64,000 nt of DNA from Allobranchiibius huperziae (GTDB lineage: Bacteria > Actinomycetota > Actinomycetes > Actinomycetales > Dermatophilaceae), in assembly GCF_013410455.1 (NCBI RefSeq), contig NZ_JACCFW010000001.1, forward strand, positions 2,000,929 to 2,064,928, in the 5' to 3' direction. The position numbers and the translations under genes were made by a program. Below are positions 7,985 to 17,586 of the stretch, piece by piece. Under the pieces are notes generated by a model. The model made no database searches. It saw only the letters and a program-made list of their open reading frames with translations, and was not told the origin of the DNA. Each line of letters begins with the position of its first letter. The stretch's first letter is position 1.

Positions 7985-8102
7985 TCCGATTTCAAAGGAC
8001 GCGCCGCGAGGCAGCTCATCAGCAGAAAACCGCCCTGCCCTGCAGCTTTGGGCAAATCGTGTTGTGGCACGAGATGACAGACGCGGGCTGAATTACACTC
8101 TG

Positions 8103-8123
8103 ATCCGATGCATATCCGATGCA
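8103..8123. repeat. Two direct copies of ATCCGATGCA before the integrase
   Basis: Identical 10-bp words begin at 8103 and 8114, spaced 11 bp apart, immediately upstream of the integrase ribosome site. Short direct repeats beside an attachment site and an integrase start are often integrase arm-type or excisionase sites. Here that role is inferred only from position. Confidence 0.4.
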
Positions 8124-8135
8124 GCAAAGGTGATG

Positions 8136-9287
8136 ATGACCGGACGCAAGCGTGGTTTTGGTCAGATCAGCAAACAGCGGAGCGGGCGGCTCCAGGCCCG
8201 CTACACCGGTCCTGATCTGCAGCTCCACACCGCCCCACACACCTTCGCGCTCCGCCTCGACGCGGAAGCTTGGCTCGCCGATGAACGCCGCTCGATCGTT
8301 GCCGACACCTGGACACCACCGGCCAATCGTCGGCTTGCGCAACTCGGTCCCGTGATCTTCGCAACGTATGCCCGTGCGTGGCTCATCGAACGCGATCTCA
8401 AGCCTCGCACCCGAGCGCACTACACGTCGCTCCTGCAGGTGCAGCTGCAGCCGCTCGCCAACACTCCGCTGACTGCGATCACTCCCCCGTTAGTTCGGCA
8501 TTGGTACAGCACTCTGGACCCCACGCGGCCAACTTTGCGCAGCCACGCATACGGCCTTCTACGCACGATCCTCAACACCGCTGTGCAAGACGAGGAGATC
8601 GCGGCCAACCCCTGCCACATCCGCGGCGCAGGGTCAGCACGACGGGTCAAACAGATCACACCAGCGACGCTTAACGAGCTAGAGGCCATCGCGCTAGCCA
8701 TGCCGGAGCACTATCGCCCACTGGTGCTTCTTGCAGCTTGGACCGGGCTTCGGTTCGGCGAGATCACCGAGCTCCGCCGCAAGGACATCGATGTTCCCAA
8801 CGGCACCCTGCACGTGCGGCGCGGAGTGGTCCGCTCTGCCGGACGGACGATTGTCGGAAGCCCTAAGAGCGCTGCCGGCGTCCGGGACGTCGCCATCCCT
8901 CCTCATCTCTTGCCCATGCTCGACGCACATCTGATGAGAATGGCGCCTGGCAGGGACAGGCTCGTGTTCCCGGCCGCTGACGGCAAGTCACACCTTGCAC
9001 CGAGCACGCTCTATCGCGTCTTCTATCCGGCGCGACAGGCTGCAGGTCGCACGGATCTGCGCTGGCACGATCTTCGGCACACAGGAGCGGTGCTGGCGGC
9101 CTAGACTGGGGCGACACTCGCAGAGCTCATGGCCCGGCTCGGTCACTCGACCCCGCATGCGGCCCTCAGATACCAACACGCAGCACACGGGAGAGACGCC
9201 CAGATCGCTATTGCACTCAGCCGAATTGCGTCGGAAGCAGCAGATGAGTCCATGTGGCGACAGATACGACCGGACGTGTCTCCGTGA
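8136..9287 (+). pseudogene. Tyrosine-type site-specific integrase, interrupted by an amber codon
   Basis: The frame encodes a phage/island integrase with an N-terminal Arm-type region, a core-binding domain (AYARAWLIERDLKPRTRAHY) and a catalytic domain. The domain has its first Arg in AAWTGLRFGEI and the H-x-x-R pair in WHDLRHTGAV. A TAG at 9102-9104 stops translation directly after LAA. Reading on in the same frame gives TGATLAELMARLGHST and ALRYQHA, the expected final His and the Tyr nucleophile, up to a TGA at 9285. The gene is otherwise intact, so one nonsense change (for example CAG to TAG) probably inactivated it. The likely start is the ATG at 8136 (or 8133), with AAAGG just upstream. 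Confidence 0.88.
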
Positions 9288-9513: not shown

Positions 9514-10824
9514 TTAGAAGTTCATCTCGATGTCAGTCCAGATCGAGTCACTGGTGATCGGCGTAACGGTGCCGGCCTGGTGCACGGCGTCCTGGATGAG
9601 CTCGACGATGCTGTCGACTGTGGCGCGCGGCCCTTCGCTAGCGATGACGGTGCCCTCTACGTTCTCGTACCCGAGCACCCGCTGGTGATCCCAGGCGGTG
9701 AAATCGGACGTCAGATGGTCGTCAAACCGGAAAATTGAGGTCCCGGGAACAACCCCGATACGAAGGCTGTAATCGCCTGTAGCGCCGAAGAGGGGCTGAG
9801 TGGCGCGTAGAAGAGCGAGCAAATCGAGTCCCACCTGCTCAATGTCGCGGACGGCTACGTCAGTGCCGCTGCCACTCACGCCCGATCTCATAAATCCTCC
9901 GTCTGTTCGGTGGACCCCTACCGCGAGGGTGCCGTCGCCGTGAATCTCCACCCGCCCTTGTGCGTTCATGGCTCGCGGTGTTTGACGGTAGTAGCGCTGC
10001 AGTCCACGGCGCATATCTTCGCCGCGAGTGACGTCGATCGAACTAATGCCTCCCCTTACACCCCTGTTGCGAAGCGCGGGCTCACAGTTGGTCAACACAC
10101 GCCAAGCTGCCCCGATGCTGAGCCGGCGGGGCTGCGCGTGGGGCCGCTCAGGTTGCAACACCCCCAACACCCACTGGTCCTGGGCTCCCTGGGTGCACGC
10201 GACTGACAGAGATTTCCACGTCTGCGCCATGTTCTTCTCGCGCTGACGACGACCCTCTTGCCGCTCTCGATAGGCGTTTGCGAGCTGCCTTTCGCTCATC
10301 CAGTGCGTGTCGGGCCCGTTGCGCCAGGGAGCCATGAACCAGTCCGAGCTCGCAGGGCCCCCCTTGGGTGGGTGAATCAGGTGTGGGGTGTCAGGACTGT
10401 CATGAACTATCGCAAGCAACACGCGATCGCCTGAGCTGGGGTCGATGAGTTCGACCAGTGCGAGACCGCTGATTGCCGGGTAGATGAGGTTGCCGGCCAC
10501 CTGCCGGATGGTCTTGGTGATGGTGTCGTTGATGGGTCCAACGGACACCACGCTCGCCGCCGTTGACACGTCGGAGCCCCTGACCTCATCGACTCCGTAC
10601 ACAATGAGACCGCCCCCGCTGTTAGCCATCGCAGCGAGATCCTTGGCTAGTTCCAGCTGCTGGGCTTGTTTGCCCACTGGGTCCACAGCCTTGAGTGGCA
10701 GTTCCTTCTTCCAATCCAGCTGCGTTGACTCAGCAACCTTCTGGGCGCAGGCTTCCGCGACCAGTTGGAAGGTCAGATCGGAGTCTGAGACGCCGAGCGC
10801 CGCGTGCAGTGGAGTCCAGGGCAT
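9514..10824 (-). CDS. AlbA_2 (Schlafen-type) DNA-binding/ATPase-domain protein
   Basis: A 436-residue protein. The N-terminal third has an AlbA_2/Schlafen-core signature: STQLDWKKEL around residue 33, then ELAKDLAAMANSGGGLIVYG, the N-[ST]-x-GG strand-loop that defines the fold. The remaining 300 residues match nothing I recognise; they are predicted soluble and contain no clear winged-helix or HTH. AlbA_2 proteins occur as transcription regulators, in phage-defence genes and as accessory genes on integrated elements. This one is alone, convergent with the integrase remnant, and has no obvious operon partner. The start codon lacks a strong ribosome site. The specific function is unknown. Confidence 0.75.
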   Translation of the reverse strand: MPWTPLHAALGVSDSDLTFQLVAEACAQKVAESTQLDWKKELPLKAVDPVGKQAQQLELAKDLAAMANSGGGLIVYGVDEVRGSDVSTAASVVSVGPINDTITKTIRQVAGNLIYPAISGLALVELIDPSSGDRVLLAIVHDSPDTPHLIHPPKGGPASSDWFMAPWRNGPDTHWMSERQLANAYRERQEGRRQREKNMAQTWKSLSVACTQGAQDQWVLGVLQPERPHAQPRRLSIGAAWRVLTNCEPALRNRGVRGGISSIDVTRGEDMRRGLQRYYRQTPRAMNAQGRVEIHGDGTLAVGVHRTDGGFMRSGVSGSGTDVAVRDIEQVGLDLLALLRATQPLFGATGDYSLRIGVVPGTSIFRFDDHLTSDFTAWDHQRVLGYENVEGTVIASEGPRATVDSIVELIQDAVHQAGTVTPITSDSIWTDIEMNF

Positions 10825-10835
10825 AGCTCAACCTA

Positions 10836-10937
10836 GATGTCATTGACTTCCTCCACGCCCTGGCCACCACCAGCGTGGAGGTCCTGGACGCAGACGCTGC
10901 GGGTCTGATGCTGGCCGACCAGCGCGGCCAGTTGCAC
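10836..10937 (+). pseudogene. Fragment of a GAF-ANTAR regulator gene
   Basis: About 34 codons read DVIDFLHALATTSVEVLDAD and then AAGLMLADQRGQL. This is nearly the same protein segment as residues 23-56 of the intact GAF-ANTAR regulator at 35908-36630. There is no start, no DNA- or RNA-binding part, and the match ends abruptly at QLH, so it is a relic of a paralogous gene. Its presence at the other end of the island suggests an older duplication or recombination. Confidence 0.75.
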
Positions 10938-10947
10938 CGTAAGCAGT

Positions 10948-11142
10948 CGAGAGCGTGACCAACCCCAACAACGCCGATGGGCGCAGGGCCGCACACGCGT
11001 GTGCGGCACGCGCGCCCCAGTCGTGTCCAACCGAAGTGACGTCGCGTAGTTCAAGGTGCGCCATCAAATCCAGGACATCACTGGCGAGGGCGGCCACCTG
11101 TCCTGACTGAGCGTCGCGCGTCAGAGCGCGGGTGCCACCAAC
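10948..11142 (-). pseudogene. Fragment of an alpha/beta-hydrolase (epoxide hydrolase/dehalogenase-like)
   Basis: About 65 codons read GGTRALTRDAQSG, then a helix, then DVTSVGHDWGARAAHACAA. This is the acidic nucleophile elbow G-H-D-W-G of alpha/beta hydrolases. Both the N-terminal oxyanion region and the C-terminal catalytic His are missing, and the frame is lost upstream. It abuts the GAF fragment, forming a junction of two gene relics. Confidence 0.65.
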
Positions 11143-11349
11143 CCCCCAACTCGACGAAGAAATGCAGGTGGTAGTTCTGGCGTGTTCCCAGTTGCGACCC
11201 AGGGACCTGGTCACTCGTAGCCTGGACCCCCCGGGCACCGGACAGGCCCGACGACACAGCACCGAAGGCTTCGCGTCATCGTTACCAACCGGCGAAGTCT
11301 CTGAAGATGGAGTGCCGGAGACACGATTCGTGGGGCGGGCGCTGCGAGA
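11143..11349. other. Degraded interval between gene relics and the sortase
   Basis: No intact frame is recognisable. Parts could be decayed upstream sequence of the hydrolase fragment, since the reading frame of its N-terminal side appears shifted here. Confidence 0.4.
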
Positions 11350-12159
11350 TCAGGACCGGGTCAGTGAGGCGAACACCACGGTGTTGGATTCGTAGTGGTG
11401 AGTGGTGGTGTTGAACCGGCCCCCGCAGGTGATCAATCGCAGGCCGGCGTAGTCGATGGGGCCGTACACGGCCTGGGAGGGAAACTGATCTTTGAGGTAG
11501 CTATCGACTGCATCGACGCGGAAGTACGCCAGGCTTCCATCGGCGCGGGTGACCTCTATTCTCTGGCCCGGGCGCAGAGCACCCAGTTTGTAGAACACCC
11601 CGGGGCCGGAGGTGGAGTCGACGTGGCCGAGAATCACAGCCGGGCCGAGCGCACCGGGTGTCGGTCCGAGGCGGTACCACGCCGCCTCGGCTGCGGTGGT
11701 GGGAACTTCGATCGTCTGGTTTGTGTTCAGCCCCACCGTCAGCAGGTGGGACTTGATGCCGACCGAGGGCACGCGTATCGACACCGGTGCCGAAGCGCTC
11801 AGATGGAAGGCCGATGGTGCGGCTGCCGAGGTGGCCGGCTTCTTGCCCGCCGCCTTCGTGGCAGGAGCAGCGGGGATCGTCACGGCCTGCTGGACCGGGC
11901 TCGCCATGGCTGCAGGAATGGTGCCTAGGTCGCCGGCAGCAGGCGGGGCTGGAGACATCGTCAGGTAGCGACCGATCAGGCCGACGGCAATCACGGCCAG
12001 CATCACGCTCAACACCAACGGGACATGCCGTTGCGCGCGTCGTCCTCGAGGTTCCTGGACCGTCCACAACGGGTGGCATCCAGCGACGCGCCTCGTCCGC
12101 CCGTTCCGTCGTCCTACGGGTTCCTGGAACAACGGGTGGCATCCGGCGACACGCTTCAT
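11350..12159 (-). CDS. Class E/F-type sortase (transpeptidase)
   Basis: A 269-residue protein with an N-terminal cytoplasmic part, one membrane segment (LVLSVMLAVIAVGLIGRYL), an Ala/Pro-rich linker and a sortase domain. Catalytic residues are visible: His at about 179 in VILGHVDS, Cys at about 245 in LRLITCGG and Arg at about 248. This spacing is that of actinobacterial class F/E housekeeping sortases, which anchor surface proteins through LPxTG- or LAxTG-like signals. The first 45 residues contain a duplicated segment (RVAGCHPLFQEP and RVAGCHPLWTVQEP), so the true start may be internal. The closest candidate substrate on the island is the DUF4331 protein 1.4 kb away. Confidence 0.82.
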   Translation of the reverse strand: MKRVAGCHPLFQEPVGRRNGRTRRVAGCHPLWTVQEPRGRRAQRHVPLVLSVMLAVIAVGLIGRYLTMSPAPPAAGDLGTIPAAMASPVQQAVTIPAAPATKAAGKKPATSAAAPSAFHLSASAPVSIRVPSVGIKSHLLTVGLNTNQTIEVPTTAAEAAWYRLGPTPGALGPAVILGHVDSTSGPGVFYKLGALRPGQRIEVTRADGSLAYFRVDAVDSYLKDQFPSQAVYGPIDYAGLRLITCGGRFNTTTHHYESNTVVFASLTRS

Positions 12160-12188
12160 GTACTCAACTCTTCTTCGCGAACCGCCCT

Positions 12189-12208
12189 GACACGTCCGCG
12201 GACGTGTC
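12189..12208. promoter_or_regulatory. Perfect 20-bp palindrome upstream of the sortase gene
   Basis: GACACGTCCG followed directly by CGGACGTGTC forms an uninterrupted palindrome 30 nt before the sortase start. It has the form of a dimeric repressor operator or a very short hairpin. The binding protein is unknown. Confidence 0.5.
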
Positions 12209-12297
12209 TCGAACGGTCAAACCCGGCCGGTTACTGAATCTCGTGCATCAACAACGCATTCCGGTGCTTCGCATCTGTCGCACCGGTACGCGCAACA

Positions 12298-12700
12298 TCC
12301 CTATCGTACGTCGGCGAGGCGGTCCGCCACCCGTGCTCGGAAAGCGCCCTGCAGATCGACTCGACACCCCACCGGGCTCACACCTGTGGCGTAGGTAACG
12401 ACGGAGCCCACGATCAGCCCGTGGCTGGTCGAGCTTGGCGGCGAGGAAAGCCGATACCGCTCAAAGCTCTCGTCGGCCCTCACGAAGTCAGCGTTCTCCC
12501 GCCGCAACCGGCGTACTTCCTGCGTTTTCCGCCGTCGTGGTCCCGTCCCGAGCGCCGGCACCGGTCTGCGCCTGACGCACCCACGTGCGCTGCATTTCTG
12601 CGGCAGTGACCCCGAGCAACGGCGCGATGCGCTGCATGACCGCCCACTGCGACTCGCTCGATAGTCGTCCCGCGACCGTCTGGACCGCTCGAACCGTCAA
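12298..12700 (-). mobile_element. Degenerate IS3-family transposase remnant (orfA and start of orfB)
   Basis: Three frames pieced together give a typical IS3 orfA: SSESQWAVMQRIAPLLGV, then RTWVRQAQTGAGARDGTTT, EVRRLRRENADF, and, after a shift, VSAFLAAKLDQPR. A further stretch, ICRALSEHGWRTASPTYD, is the beginning of the orfB integrase. Frameshifts separate the pieces, most of orfB is missing, and no terminal inverted repeats were recognised. It is an inactive relic within the island. Confidence 0.8.
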
Positions 12701-13183
12701 CCCGGCCGAACACCGCCTCGAGGTGCCCCTGGATCGTGGTTGGCACCAGGCGGATATCGACGATCGCTGGTCGGGGTTGAAATTGGGACCGGGCCGAAGG
12801 CATGTGCTCGCCGGCGCGGGTCGCGGCGCGCCTGGATCGGCACCGGCCGGTCGTGCCGCGAGACCGCCCGCACACCGCCCAACGTACGAGGGCGTGTCCG
12901 CCCAGGCTGCTCCCCCCGCGATGCGGGCCGTGGGCACCTCTGGGCGGCTGTCGATGACCAGGCAAAGCCCCGCGTCCGCCCCACCCGCAGAGCGTGTCTT
13001 CTCCAGATTTACGGAGCGACAACCTCGGTTGTATCCAAACGGCGCGCAGCGACGTAGCGTGTCTAGCAGAGCGACGGCAAGTGCTGCACAAGGGGTTTTG
13101 GGGTTGAATCTCGACCCGTTCGATCCGGCTCTCGGGTGTGCCCCGCTCACGATCCTCCACGTCCGCATCCGAAAGGTTTCACC
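12701..13183. other. Interval without a recognisable gene
   Basis: Long overlapping frames exist on both strands because of high GC, but none shows a known domain. The right-hand part (13000-13180) is less GC-biased and probably carries the promoter of the Tat-signal gene that starts at 13184, preceded by GAAAGG. Confidence 0.45.
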
Positions 13184-13465
13184 ATGGCTGGTAGTAATCG
13201 TCGCAATTTCCTCAAGAGTGCCTCCCTGGGGGCGGTCGGGGTAGCGGCGGTCGCTGCCCCGGAATTGCTGTTCGGTGGGGCGGCGCAGGCGGGCACCCCC
13301 GCCTTGGAGACGCCCATCCCCGCGAAGGGGGTGAACGGACCGATCGTGGTGTTCCTGCGCGACGCCGGCAGTGGAGAGTTCACCGTGATGCACGGTGAAC
13401 GGTCTTCAACATTTGTCGACAAGGGGCTCGCCGCGCGCCTGACTCATGAGGTACCCAAGGCCTGA
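13184..13465 (+). CDS. Small Tat-signal protein next to DUF4331
   Basis: A 93-residue protein that begins with a twin-arginine signal (NRRNFLKSASLG) and a long hydrophobic stretch ending GGAAQAG, an AxA-type cleavage site. The mature part is only about 60 residues and contains PIVVFLRDAGSGEFTVMHGE, a short strand-rich module without cofactor motifs. The ATG at 13184 has GAAAGG 7 nt upstream. It lies 108 nt before the DUF4331 gene on the same strand. Export through Tat of such a small mature domain suggests that it folds with a partner. The function is not known. Confidence 0.75.
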   Translation: MAGSNRRNFLKSASLGAVGVAAVAAPELLFGGAAQAGTPALETPIPAKGVNGPIVVFLRDAGSGEFTVMHGERSSTFVDKGLAARLTHEVPKA

Positions 13466-13573
13466 GCTGGCAGCTCGACTGTTTTCACTCCTGCCGCACC
13501 TGGCGGGCACAGACACCCATTTCTGGTTTGGCGCGAACGCGCCGGACTTACTTTGCCGATAAAGAGGTAGTTC

Positions 13574-15187
13574 ATGTCGTCTCACAAGGAAGCCCCGTCG
13601 ATCAGCAACGATGCGGCCGCGGACAACACCGACGTTTATGTCTTCGTCAGCCCAGACAATCCGGACACCGTCACGATGATCGCCAACTTCGTGCCGTTCG
13701 AGGATCCGGCCGGTGGGCCGAACTTCGATGAGTTCGGTGACGACGTGCTGTATGAGATCCACATCGACAACAACGGCGACGGCCTGGCCGAGATCGTCTA
13801 CCAGTTCACGTTCAACACCGAATACACCATTCCGAACACGTTCTTGTACAACGTGGGGCCGATCGAGTCGCTGACCAGCAAGAACTGGAACAGGCGGCAG
13901 TACGTGTCCGTGAATCGGCGGGACGTCGCCGCCGGCAAGGACCTGCGCCTGGCAGACAAACTTCCCTGCCCGCCCTGCAACATCGGCCCCTTCTCCACCC
14001 CGGACTACGTGAAGCTGGCCAACGCGGCCATCCACCACCTCGACGGCGGTCGCACCCTGTTCGCAGGGCAGCGGGCCGAGGGGTTCTACGTCGACCTCGG
14101 AGCGATCTTCGACCTCGGTGATCTACGGCCGTTCCAGAACCTGCATGTGGGCTCGCAGATGCCGGCCGCCGGAGGCATCAGCGGCACGAACGCCAAGAAC
14201 GTGCACTCCATCACCCTGCAAGTCCCCAAAACCGACCTGAGCGCGGGCGGGCACGCGCCGACCGATCCCACCAACCCCCGTTCCACGATCGGGGTGTGGG
14301 CCACCGCCAGCCGGCAGCAAACCCGCATGTACGACACGCAACGCCCAGGCACCACCATCAACACCGGGCCCTGGGTGCAGGTCTCCCGACAGGCGAACCC
14401 GCTGTTCAACGAGGTACTCATCCCCATCACCAAGAAAGACCTCTTCAATTCCCAGCAGCCCGGTAATGACAAGCAGTTCGCTCAATATGTCACCAGTCCC
14501 GAACTGGGCAAGCTGCTCCCCAACCTCTACCCCGGTGAGTTCCCCCACCTCGCGGCGTTGAACGCCTCCGGCAAGCCGCGGGCGGACCTGGCAGCCATCT
14601 TGCTCACTGGCATTCCGGCGGGGATCGTCCCCGGTTTCCAGAACAACACCGGCACGGTGATGGCCGATCAGCTACGACTGAACATGGCCATCCCGCCCAC
14701 CACCAAATCGCCCAGCAACCTCGGCCTGATCGGGATGGATCCGGCCGGGTTCCCCAACGGGCGCCGCGTGTTCGACGACGTGACCACCATCGAGCTGCGC
14801 GCTATCGCCGGGGTGACCTACGCCCTGGTCGACAAATCCTTCACCCCCGACAAGGCAGCCGGGGCAATCACCCAAGGCCTGACCTCCTCCAACACCGACG
14901 TCCATGCCAAGAACACCCAGCACTACCTGCCCGGCTTCCCCTACCTGGGCACCCCGCACAACGGTCACGACAACCCCGCCAACAACGACCCGGCACCCTA
15001 CCCGGGTACCAGTGCCGGCCCGACCGTGCCAATCGGTGGCCCCAGCACGGGTGCCGGCGGCACCAGCGGTGGGCGGGACACCGGGCTGCTCGTCGGGGGC
15101 GCCGTAGCGGCGGCAGGGGCCGCCGCCGCCGCCGTCGCACACCAACACCGCTCAGGCAACGACATCACACCCGAGACCCCGGCATGA
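13574..15187 (+). CDS. DUF4331 domain protein with C-terminal hydrophobic tail
   Basis: A 537-residue DUF4331 protein: SSHKEAPSISNDAAADNTDV at the N-terminus, then VLYEIHIDNNGDG and GFYVDLGAIFDLG, all typical. DUF4331 proteins are normally exported, but this one begins at the domain with no signal peptide of its own; AAAGAGGTAG just before the ATG supports the start. The C-terminal 60 residues are low-complexity Gly/Pro/Thr, then a hydrophobic GLLVGGAVAAAGAAAAAVA segment followed by HQHR. This looks like a membrane or sorting anchor. The preceding gene is a Tat-signal mini-protein and a sortase gene is nearby, so the three may form an export and anchoring unit (inference). The biochemical role of the family is unknown. 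Confidence 0.85.
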   Translation: MSSHKEAPSISNDAAADNTDVYVFVSPDNPDTVTMIANFVPFEDPAGGPNFDEFGDDVLYEIHIDNNGDGLAEIVYQFTFNTEYTIPNTFLYNVGPIESLTSKNWNRRQYVSVNRRDVAAGKDLRLADKLPCPPCNIGPFSTPDYVKLANAAIHHLDGGRTLFAGQRAEGFYVDLGAIFDLGDLRPFQNLHVGSQMPAAGGISGTNAKNVHSITLQVPKTDLSAGGHAPTDPTNPRSTIGVWATASRQQTRMYDTQRPGTTINTGPWVQVSRQANPLFNEVLIPITKKDLFNSQQPGNDKQFAQYVTSPELGKLLPNLYPGEFPHLAALNASGKPRADLAAILLTGIPAGIVPGFQNNTGTVMADQLRLNMAIPPTTKSPSNLGLIGMDPAGFPNGRRVFDDVTTIELRAIAGVTYALVDKSFTPDKAAGAITQGLTSSNTDVHAKNTQHYLPGFPYLGTPHNGHDNPANNDPAPYPGTSAGPTVPIGGPSTGAGGTSGGRDTGLLVGGAVAAAGAAAAAVAHQHRSGNDITPETPA

Positions 15188-15228: not shown

Positions 15229-15546
15229 ATGACCGAACAGCCCTACGGGCCGACGGACGCCGGCGCAGTGGTGCTCGACATCGGTGGGGACATCGGCGCC
15301 CTGGTCCTGCACACCACCCCTGAGCTCGTCGGCGCAGAGATCGAGGTCAGCCGCGTCGGGTCCGGAACCCCCCGCACACACACCGCGGTCCGGCAACGCC
15401 GCGACGGACCAAGCGTGCAGTACGCGGCAATCTTTGCCGCACTGCATGCCGGTGACTATGTCGTCCACGACCTCGATGGCACCCCCACCGACACCGTCAC
15501 CATCATTGGTGGCCACGTCGCTACCCTCGACTGGTCCCAGCACTGA
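15229..15546 (+). CDS. Small conserved hypothetical protein
   Basis: A 105-residue soluble protein starting 41 nt after the DUF4331 gene and probably cotranscribed with it. It reads as a beta-rich domain (GAVVLDIGGDIGALVLHT, EIEVSR, HTAVRQR, GDYVVHD). I recall similar short actinobacterial proteins of unknown function, sometimes labelled phospholipase without clear basis; no catalytic motif is visible. No membrane segment or signal is seen. Confidence 0.65.
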   Translation: MTEQPYGPTDAGAVVLDIGGDIGALVLHTTPELVGAEIEVSRVGSGTPRTHTAVRQRRDGPSVQYAAIFAALHAGDYVVHDLDGTPTDTVTIIGGHVATLDWSQH

Positions 15547-15747
15547 CCCACCCACAACAGCCGCTCCGGGTGCCACCGCCGTCGCCGGGGTGAGGCCGCA
15601 CCAACCCACCCAAGCTGTCCATGCCGGCGTCTCGAGCCGCGGCAGCGAGGACCAGCTCAGTCGTTGACCTAGTGCAGGCTCGCTGCAACGTTCGTAGGTG
15701 AGTTGGATGATGTGGCCTCACCGCCCCAGCCCTGGTGGTACTTCCTA

Positions 15748-15843
15748 AAGGAAGCGCTGGCCACAGTGGCCGACGAAGCTGGGCTGTCACTCATCTACCT
15801 GGCGCTCGGATTCGTTCTTGCCCACCCAGGGGTGGCCACCGCA
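15748..15843 (+). pseudogene. Fragment of an aldo/keto reductase gene
   Basis: About 32 codons read ATVADEAGLSLIYLALGFVL and then AHPGVATAI. This is the C-terminal helix-strand region of aldo/keto reductases that precedes the IIG.RT NADP-binding loop. Everything before and after is missing. The fragment runs directly into a HAD hydrolase fragment in another frame. Confidence 0.65.
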
Positions 15844-16265
15844 ATCTACTTGACGGGTGCCGCAATGCGGGCCTCACGGTTGTCCTTGCGACGAGCGGGG
15901 CCAAGTCTGATCTTGACTGGATGTTGCCCCGGATCGGCGCGCATGACGTAGTGATGGGCGCGATCACCTCCGATGACGTCGTTGCTTCCAAACCAGCACC
16001 GGACCTGCTGACCGCGGCGCTGAAGGAGCACAGGTTGGACTCGGCACGCACAGCCGTCGTCGGAGACACCGTGTGGGATGTAGAGGCAGCGCAACGGGCC
16101 GGATTGCCCTGCATCGCGCTGCTGTCTGGCGGGATTGCCGAGGCAAAGCTGCGTGACGCGGGCGCGATAGAGGTCTACGAAGATCCGGCCGACCTACTCG
16201 CCAAGCTGGAGTCATCCCTCCTAAGAACGCTGGTCCGGCGGGTCCCCCGTAACACGCGTCGATGA
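15844..16265 (+). pseudogene. N-terminally truncated HAD-superfamily phosphatase
   Basis: About 140 codons contain the HAD motif II strand (LTVVLATSGAK), motif III Lys and the conserved SKPAPDLL, motif IV GDTVWDVEAAQRAG, and the family tail. The motif I DxDxT region and the cap are absent; in their place is the aldo/keto reductase relic. The end of the gene is intact, so the loss was at the 5' side. A short product from an internal start cannot be excluded but would lack the nucleophile. Confidence 0.75.
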
Positions 16266-16308: not shown

Positions 16309-17586
16309 TCAGCTGCTGCCGTCGGCCTTCCGGCCGGTCTGGGTCGTGGCTAGATGAGATCGAACGCGCACGGTGGGAGCGTTGGGGTCATGTAGCTGAG
16401 GGATCGCGGCAAGGTTGAAGGCCTTGATGACTCCGGGGCCAAAGATCAGGCAGTGGGTGGACCCACCGAACTGGAAGTACCCCAGCTCGTCGCCCTTGCC
16501 TACATGCTGACCGGGTGTCAGACCCGCGCCGATCACGCAGGAGGAGACCTCGTTCATTCCGACGGGCATGAACGCCACCAGGCCGATGGCCGGGTTGTCA
16601 GCTTGGATGAGAAAAATGGCCCGGGCGGCGACGTGCGCCTGGTAGCCCTGGGAGTTGCGTGGGTCCACAGCGTCGGCGCCTTCTGCGTCGGCTTCGGAGT
16701 AGTAGGTGCCCTGTTGGACCGAGGCGCGCACGATGGTGCCGGCAATGGGGCTGTGCCAGCGGTGGTAGTCCGTGGCGCTGAGGAACGCCTGGTAGACGGT
16801 CCCGCCGACGAACTGGTCCACGGCCTCATCGCCGGCGAGCATGTCGTGTAGGGAGTAGGGCTGGTTCTTGATCCAGAAGCGGTCGTTGCGCTGCACATCG
16901 GTCTTGATGCTGTACGGAGTGGACTCGCACGCATTGGCGATGATCGCGTCGTCGTCAGGCTCGGCAACGGGACGTTGCCCGTCTTTAAAAGTGCGGGTGA
17001 AGTAGTCGTTCCAGGATGCGAATCCCCAGTACGGGTCTTGCGGGTCGTGCTGGAACTGCTCGATGCCGACGGCCTTGCAGGCCTGCTCGCTCTTCCAACC
17101 GGTGGGGGTGTCGTTCAGGACGTAGCGGGACTCGTTGCTGCTGAGGAATTGGCACCACGCGTTCAGGATTTTCTGCAGCATGGCGTTGAGCTGGGGGTTG
17201 CGGTAGGCGGCGAACCCGGCGGTGGTGCCCATCGTCCAGTCCAGGATCCCGGCCAGTGGCAAGGTCACGGCCTGGTCCCCGAATTCCGGTGCCACCGTCA
17301 GCACCTCGTTGATCAGCAGCAGCATCTGATCGACGCTGGTCAGGTGCTGCCGGCTGTAGGACCTGCTGCGGGGCACCTCGGTAATCATCCGATCCAGGTA
17401 CATCCGCACCACCGGGTCCCCAGCGATGAGTTCTTTGAACTCCACGATGACCGGGTGCAGCACTACCTGGTCGCCCTTGGCCTCAGCACGCTGCTGGTGA
17501 CCCTTCAACCACTCCTCCAGAGCGTCTTGGTCAGGTAACCATCCAGCCCGGCGCCGAAGATCCGTATTCGGAGAGGTATCGCTCAT
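16309..17586 (-). CDS. Phosphatidylserine decarboxylase-like pyruvoyl enzyme
   Basis: A 425-residue protein with an N-terminal PSD-associated domain (residues about 20-180) and a C-terminal phosphatidylserine decarboxylase domain. The domain has DYHRWHSPIAG for the catalytic His region and a GGST self-cleavage motif, with Ser at about residue 376 as the pyruvoyl precursor. It is longer and more soluble-looking than housekeeping Psd. It belongs to the PSD-related group with an N-terminal extension whose substrates are often amino-acid-derived rather than membrane phosphatidylserine. No phosphatidylserine synthase gene lies nearby. The start at 17586 has no strong ribosome site, so the N-terminus is tentative. 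Confidence 0.82.
   Translation of the reverse strand: MSDTSPNTDLRRRAGWLPDQDALEEWLKGHQQRAEAKGDQVVLHPVIVEFKELIAGDPVVRMYLDRMITEVPRSRSYSRQHLTSVDQMLLLINEVLTVAPEFGDQAVTLPLAGILDWTMGTTAGFAAYRNPQLNAMLQKILNAWCQFLSSNESRYVLNDTPTGWKSEQACKAVGIEQFQHDPQDPYWGFASWNDYFTRTFKDGQRPVAEPDDDAIIANACESTPYSIKTDVQRNDRFWIKNQPYSLHDMLAGDEAVDQFVGGTVYQAFLSATDYHRWHSPIAGTIVRASVQQGTYYSEADAEGADAVDPRNSQGYQAHVAARAIFLIQADNPAIGLVAFMPVGMNEVSSCVIGAGLTPGQHVGKGDELGYFQFGGSTHCLIFGPGVIKAFNLAAIPQLHDPNAPTVRVRSHLATTQTGRKADGSS

Follow-up and report, generated by a model that had tools for sequence, protein, structure and literature searches.

A stretch of 64,000 nucleotides from Allobranchiibius huperziae (assembly GCF_013410455.1, contig NZ_JACCFW010000001.1, positions 2,000,929 to 2,064,928 of the forward strand; hereafter the window, with positions counted from its first letter) encodes a DUF4331 protein that starts without a signal peptide and is preceded by a mini-protein of 93 residues carrying a twin-arginine translocation (Tat) signal. 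Comparison of this gene pair across genomes indicates that the signal-less core form of DUF4331 is probably exported by hitchhiking through Tat on the mini-protein. A preliminary description of this DNA, made from the sequence alone, had named a sortase, the Tat mini-protein and the DUF4331 protein, and the identity of all three was confirmed by family matches in profile searches (Table 1). It had also suggested that the DUF4331 protein might ride through Tat on the small protein, a suggestion that is now well supported by comparison, since the pair is conserved and no missed signal peptide was found.

Linkage of the mini-protein to signal-less DUF4331

The core DUF4331 genes considered here, which share an (S/T)SHREAP motif, are the 149 full or N-terminally complete strong matches to PF14224, weaker divergent matches being excluded. 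Every one of the 73 signal-less members lies beside a mini-protein gene (73/73), and no such gene was seen beside any of the 76 members with a leader (0/76). The adjacency exceeds chance, and the neighbour pair pointed out in the preliminary description is conserved across genomes. The signal-less set comprises 58 named loci, 11 places among relatives (window included) and four places in a phylum sample; at least three contigs, recognised by their equal lengths, are present under two ids (L160/L043, L166/L037 and L184/L097, where L, G and C numbers are our handles for loci, genomes and contigs). Fragments lacking the N-terminus (e.g. G064:C165, G259, G423 and G278:C163) and G034 were left out of the counts.

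Within the organism's own genome and its relatives, 58 genomes in all, there are 12 places with a strong full-length DUF4331 match, 11 of which start M-SSH(R/K)EAP without a leader and have the mini-protein gene directly upstream (11/11). The spacing between the two genes in ten relatives ranges from an overlap of one base (two places) through 4-6 bp (three) to 38-102 bp (five). The twelfth place (G007:C225) has its own leader and lacks the mini-protein, and a further genome (G032) has an additional mini-protein gene at a contig edge, followed by a DUF4331 start as read by eye. A search of 396 phylum genomes, in which at most 13 candidates were scored per genome so that the count is a lower bound, gave at least seven full-length mini-protein matches, all adjoining DUF4331; two of the seven are in the organism's own genome and one neighbours a DUF4331 gene that is truncated at the edge of its contig, and the weaker matches cover mostly the signal half only. 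This sample also holds 59 further N-terminally complete strong DUF4331 genes, 55 with a leader and four without, the latter all having the mini-protein.

The named loci are the best 80 of 570 relatives and consist of 58 complete signal-less loci, 20 leader-bearing loci and two that are cut at contig ends and left out (L137, L189). The mini-protein gene is directly upstream on the same strand in 55 of the 58 signal-less loci; it is convergent and just downstream of DUF4331 in L130 and L131, and split over two frames in L138. L130 was counted as signal-less despite its hydropathy, the start codon standing directly before SSH and its sister L131 having a stop codon upstream. The mini-protein was not seen in the 20 leader-bearing loci, two of which, L193 and L197, stop at DUF4331, so that a neighbour could be unseen there. 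In the leader-bearing locus L206 the signal half of the mini-protein is weakly matched on the opposite strand (E 2e-4), and an upstream frame of the leader-bearing genes in L123 (second gene) and L125 meets a crude RR filter but is unlike a mini-protein. Distance correlations over 45 loci between mini-protein and DUF4331 (r 0.66) and between DUF4331 and the third conserved gene described below (r 0.84) leave shared ancestry uncontrolled and were given no weight.

Two N-terminal forms of one family

The DUF4331 protein of the window matches PF14224 (cut-off 27) over residues 2-461 of 537, covering the profile from 1 to 421 of 421. Its open frame starts one codon before the ATG (FMSSHK...), with a stop codon just upstream, which rules out a signal peptide overlooked upstream of the annotated start, a possibility raised with the preliminary description. 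A frameshifted fusion of the mini-protein with DUF4331 is likewise ruled out in the window, where 108 bp separate the mini-protein stop from the DUF4331 ATG and the two are separate polypeptides.

The signal-less core form has its start codon directly before (S/T)SH in 73/73 genes, with no leader in any, and the sister form (76/149) has a hydrophobic leader that ends at the (S/T)SHREAP motif. The residue at -1 of the leader form is Ala in 71/76, as after a signal peptidase site, and a loose RR pattern is matched by 29/77 leaders (L130 included). Removal of the initiator Met from the signal-less start is expected from general rules; since the signal-less form begins where the sister leader ends, the mature N-terminus would then be identical in both forms.

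A quick tree of 97 genes splits the two forms by one branch (SH-aLRT 100) and cannot distinguish gain from loss. The signal-less side contains Actinomycetota, Chloroflexota, Thermomicrobiota, Dormibacterota, Acidobacteriota, Aminicenantes and Bathyarchaeota, many of them represented by metagenome-assembled genomes (MAGs), so that contamination could affect some assignments. Thirteen positions (Met1 included) differ consistently between the forms, mostly at about 316-326, 350-357 and 420-428, and one may guess that these three segments form an interface. Plasmid sequences include 33 records with DUF4331 relatives, all below 60% identity, and 20 of the 20 listed matches start at residue 2, like the leader forms.

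The AlphaFold2 (AF2) model of the DUF4331 protein has a confident core, with a mean predicted local distance difference test score (pLDDT) of 83.7 and values below 50 at residues 471-537. Searching PDB sequences with the DUF4331 profile gave none at E up to 1, Foldseek gave a best E of 0.033 (probability 0.06), and VIA gave at most Z 7.4 (CBM74 chain 7uwv_A, 192 residues, root-mean-square deviation 4.5), which is in the range of unrelated folds.

The Tat mini-protein

The mini-protein, with its ATG at 13184, has the twin-arginine motif SNRRNFLKS in a signal that spans residues 1 to about 36, and matches the TIGR01409 TAT signal model at 18.6 bits (cut-off 16.7). The twin arginine is present in 51/53 mini-proteins. 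Beyond the signal, the AF2 model contains a b-b-b-a domain at residues 54-89, with block-mean pLDDT of 91-95 over residues 51-90, so that the C-terminal domain is predicted to fold confidently. Foldseek (best E 1.3) and VIA (Z at most 2.0, in the range of unrelated folds) gave no confident relative for it; fold-search lists without a confident match do not exclude a family. At no position of the mini-protein alignment is a His or Cys invariant or nearly so, and the archaeal members show, by eye, no obvious signal-peptidase site. TatC was found in the organism's own genome and in four of five other genomes.

A third conserved gene

The linkage extends to a third gene, absent from the preliminary description, that we call orf105 after its length in residues. 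Its homologue adjoins 57/67 signal-less DUF4331 loci vs 0/20 loci with a leader, two of these stopping at DUF4331. When neighbouring genes were compared blind, the same three families emerged as widely shared (70, 46 and 44 loci), the next family occurring in 11 loci. In the Acidimicrobiaceae loci L130 and L131 all three genes are kept, with the mini-protein gene and orf105 on the strand opposite DUF4331 and flanking it; the linkage of the three genes survives rearrangement in these loci.

For the orf105 product, Pfam and NCBIfam gave no match over cut-off, and a signal peptide is not evident. Clusters of His (at least 4 in 12 residues) occur in 24/63 orf105 homologues vs 12/263 naively called small open reading frames (ORFs) of the same loci, a comparison set that still contains the orf105 genes; such a cluster is absent from the orf105 of the window. 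The homologues in L138, L152 and L156 are longer, with an extra C-terminal part of about 190 residues, for which no Pfam or NCBIfam match over cut-off was found in L138.

The sortase and the C-terminal tail

The preliminary description had assigned the neighbouring sortase to class E/F, and the class F part of that assignment stands: the protein exceeds the NF033748 cut-off (189.4 bits against 166) and its GHVDS and RLITCGG motifs are as in other class F sequences in an alignment of 14 relatives and one partial sequence. The same description had given the DUF4331 protein a hydrophobic C-terminal tail with basic residues. The hydrophobic stretch is present, and the basic end amounts to HQHR only, followed by 11 non-basic residues, with fewer basic residues than in GVDTG tails. 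Residues 485-523 score 24.6 bits with hmmscan against NF058571 GVDTG_CTERM (cut-off 29); in the genome search the tail scores 28.6 bits, or 29.2 with neighbouring matches in frame. The better reading of its sorting motif is PIGGPSTGAGGTS, a relative having PVGGMDTGGGGTS; GRDTG, which follows PIGGPSTGAGGTS, was dropped as the motif after comparison with other GVDTG tails.

Whether this tail is a sortase substrate was weighed against a chance neighbourhood, in which it would be a membrane tail or a decaying relic; we give that alternative a little less than an even chance. It is favoured by the tail scoring at or below the family cut-off, by the weak basic end, and by the position of the sortase gene, 3.2 kb away on the opposite strand. 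It is favoured also by the gap between the sortase and the mini-protein gene (12160-13183), which has no Pfam match, by a partial sortase frame that lies near a tail-less DUF4331 copy in G027, and by the occurrence of a hydrophobic C-terminal tail in 10/70 leader-bearing DUF4331 proteins, five of them from one genus (g58). Against it, of the 24 GVDTG tails over cut-off, 22 have a class F sortase within 1 kb; in this pairing the 39 highest-scoring class F matches were compared with all 32 tail matches, 24 of the 32 lying within 2 kb. Two class F sortases encoded in the organism's own genome exceed the cut-off, and each has one GVDTG tail in its locus, though a third, partial tail match at 3102162 is near none.

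Of 70 complete signal-less DUF4331 proteins, the window copy alone ends in a hydrophobic tail; the genome's second copy has none. Given the tails of the 10/70 leader-bearing proteins, C-terminal anchoring is not foreign to the DUF4331 family, but the sortase link seen here is one case. Anchoring by the sortase, as the preliminary description had proposed it, is moderately supported and for this copy alone, with a tail at the cut-off of a class F-linked family and a weak basic end; judged from sequence, we consider sortase anchoring specific to this copy about evenly balanced.

Proposed export route and alternatives

In the model that we favour, the DUF4331 protein would fold in the cytoplasm and bind the small C-terminal domain of the mini-protein, whose twin-arginine signal would carry the complex through the Tat translocase; the mini-protein would in this way replace the N-terminal leader of the sister form. 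The orf105 product, in which no signal is evident, most likely has a cytoplasmic role that precedes export, in folding, loading or proofreading. In this genome the neighbouring class F sortase would cleave the tail and link DUF4331 to the cell wall, a step that we propose less firmly than the others.

Several observations weigh against the hitchhiking model. RL replaces RR in two related mini-proteins (L135:993-1319 and L183:5688-6014, TRLSFIK). The signal half of the mini-protein profile matches PDB sequences weakly (E about 0.001, best 0.0009); those matched include MelC, the small subunit of arsenite oxidase and the precursor of a periplasmic nitrate reductase, with PaoA at E 0.22, all of them exported by Tat. 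One of the six genomes searched for TatC, a Bathyarchaeota MAG, gave no match. The leader-bearing locus L202 shows just 107 bp upstream of its DUF4331 gene, so that a mini-protein could be unseen. The orf105 gene is missing at 10/67 signal-less loci, among which are every archaeal locus examined, the Aminicenantes loci, L176 and two of the three G027 copies.

A further point against the model comes from 22 divergent PF14224 genes without the SSHREAP start, of which 21 are leaderless and L248 alone has a leader (the call for L259, hydropathy 1.5, is at threshold). A full-length mini-protein or orf105 was found beside 0/22 of them. A leaderless member of the wider family therefore need not have a carrier, and the divergent leaderless proteins may be cytoplasmic and form a separate branch. 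Because of these genes we slightly lowered our confidence in the hitchhiking model, which we still regard as probable. The divergent starts (L245-L264, L126, L127) include SHHLD, SDHIS and DHLDA. A nearby frame with a Tat-like signal occurs in L126, L127 and L245, to which the mini-protein profile gives a signal-type match only; in L126 (G171:C42:1541-2647) and L127 (G093:C108) the divergent DUF4331 gene is followed by a 170-residue frame with a Tat-like signal at its start.

Two alternatives to this model concern the role of the mini-protein. It could be an assembly factor resembling MelC1, delivering a metal or cofactor to DUF4331, with co-export as a side effect and the mini-protein staying bound as a subunit. 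The enrichment of His clusters among orf105 homologues (24/63 vs 12/263 small ORFs, orf105 genes not removed) would fit such a role, which we nevertheless consider improbable: the mini-protein alignment is without invariant or nearly invariant His or Cys, the orf105 of the window is itself without a His cluster, and DUF4331 has no known cofactor site, a solved relative not having been found.

Alternatively, the mini-protein and DUF4331 could be functional partners with DUF4331 remaining in the cytoplasm, the mini-protein being exported or membrane-anchored alone and the link regulatory. The divergent genes without leader or mini-protein (21/22) make cytoplasmic members of the wider family likely, archaeal mini-proteins in which no signal-peptidase site is obvious by eye may stay in the membrane, and orf105 has no evident signal. 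The sister leader, however, ends exactly at the signal-less start, and an N-terminus kept in this way argues for an exported protein; a known pair of the same layout, MelC1/MelC2, is moreover exported together (PMC2758597). We regard a cytoplasmic DUF4331 as quite unlikely.

Returning to export on the mini-protein, the three genes could be read more boldly as a widespread export-and-maturation module that the papers searched do not describe. A cytoplasmic, often His-rich orf105 product would load a metal or cofactor into DUF4331, which would then leave the cell in folded form on its dedicated Tat carrier; with either route of export the protein would keep a mature (S/T)-S-His N-terminus, fitting the type of ATCUN, an amino-terminal metal-binding motif, and the module would here be wired to a class F sortase. 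This extension is speculative and we think it unlikely to hold in full.

Locus and genomic setting

Table 1. Genes and sequence features of the unit in the window.
Feature	Position	Strand	Basis
Class F sortase	11350-12159	minus	NF033748 189.4 bits, cut-off 166; His and Cys motifs aligned
Tat mini-protein, 93 aa	13184-13465	plus	TIGR01409 over cut-off; SNRRNFLKS...AQA signal and small folded domain
DUF4331 protein without signal peptide, 537 aa, starts M-SSHKEAP	13574-15187	plus	PF14224 449.7 bits
C-terminal sorting-signal-like tail: PIGGPSTGAGGTSGGRDTG, Ala/Val-rich stretch, HQHR, short hydrophilic end	15026-15187	plus	NF058571 GVDTG_CTERM
orf105, 105 aa, third conserved gene	15229-15546	plus	Linkage to signal-less DUF4331; no family match

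The sortase gene is divergently oriented from the DUF4331 unit, and Pfam searches of two frames in the intervening gap gave no match over cut-off; by eye the gap resembles a decayed IS3-type transposase, which is unproven. An integrase gene lies at 8064-9104 (Pfam), and 9514-10824, 10840-11262 and 15735-16265 hold an AlbA_2 (Schlafen-type) gene and, by eye, alpha/beta hydrolase and haloacid dehalogenase (HAD) phosphatase fragments. The integrase, the AlbA_2 gene and the apparent gene fragments are signs of a mobile, decaying stretch. A gene of phosphatidylserine decarboxylase type (16309-17586; PF12588 and PF02666) adjoins the unit.

The guanine-plus-cytosine (GC) content is mostly 0.63-0.69 (one block 0.72) at about 8-38 kb of the window vs 0.67-0.73 to the right, and tRNA genes lie at 37.6-39.5 kb. 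Together with the integrase, these features suggest that the stretch bearing the window copy was perhaps acquired as a block. A second module is present in the same genome, 22 kb before the window (G000:C1:1976819-1978593); in the tree it groups with same-genus copies (support 100), and the window copy with an Actinomycetota MAG (99).

Among other neighbours of the module, a gene for a sigma-70 family factor of the extracytoplasmic function (ECF)-like type occurs within a few kb in seven diverse loci, L128, L130, L131, L135, L139, L142 and L155 (Pfam on L128). CofD and FO-synthase genes lie near the module in Micromonosporaceae (L141 and others), and CofC/CofD in Bathyarchaeota loci (L165 and others), two lineages that are unrelated. 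A link to the cofactor F420 was considered and set aside: CofD is over cut-off in 42/58 relatives, including all 8 with the mini-protein, and is therefore not discriminating.

Relation to known systems

The preliminary description knew of no described system with this arrangement. None was found in the literature searched (hitchhiker, MelC1, sortase substrate, GVDTG, DUF4331), and the claim is to be qualified by two precedents, MelC1/MelC2 and the Tat-dependent sortase substrates; a paper on DUF4331 was likewise not found in that literature, and the linkage to the mini-protein provides a first handle on this family. Tiny Tat proteins linked to one larger gene are known from TIGR02811, the formate-dehydrogenase-region TAT target, from which the mini-protein differs in matching the signal half only (18.1 bits vs a cut-off of 48.45).

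In the tyrosinase operon of Streptomyces, MelC2 has no signal peptide of its own and leaves the cell as a hitchhiker on MelC1 (PMC2758597). The likeness is that of a two-gene operon in which the gene for a small Tat-signal protein immediately precedes that for a larger extracellular protein lacking a signal (PMC2758597, PMC4273604). No sequence or fold relation of the mini-protein domain or DUF4331 to MelC1/MelC2 was found, the mini-protein matching MelC in the signal half only (E 0.0014), and the present system differs in its third linked gene, its occurrence in several phyla and archaeal MAGs, and its leader-bearing sister passenger. Multi-subunit Tat hitchhikers are represented by HybO/HybC and PaoABC (PMC4273604), and FAD (flavin adenine dinucleotide) glucose dehydrogenase has a hitchhiker subunit (PMC6719666). 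In these a single partner bears the Tat signal, as is the case here; the proteins concerned are subunits of known enzymes, whereas the carrier described here is a Tat signal with a domain of about 40 residues. One family apparently occurs in two export forms, with its own leader or partner-dependent, that correspond to the residue and extend across phyla into archaeal MAGs. The two forms thereby lend themselves to testing, in a natural setting, which properties turn a protein into a Tat passenger.

The pairs of class F sortase and GVDTG protein (NF033748, NF058571) resemble the window in sortase class and in a tail at the family cut-off; they are usually on the same strand and a few hundred bases apart, whereas here the genes point away from each other at a distance of 3.2 kb, and no signal peptide is present on the putative substrate. 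Actinobacterial Tat-dependent, tail-anchored sortase substrates carry their own Tat signal peptide (PMC10924467); the DUF4331 protein, likewise actinobacterial, is predicted to be exported by Tat and has a candidate C-terminal tail of this sortase type. That paper states of its search that signal-less tail-anchored passengers exported with a partner fell outside it (PMC10924467). The window copy is a concrete candidate for this class, and if the module is indeed wired to the class F sortase, it would represent a sortase substrate without a signal peptide of its own.

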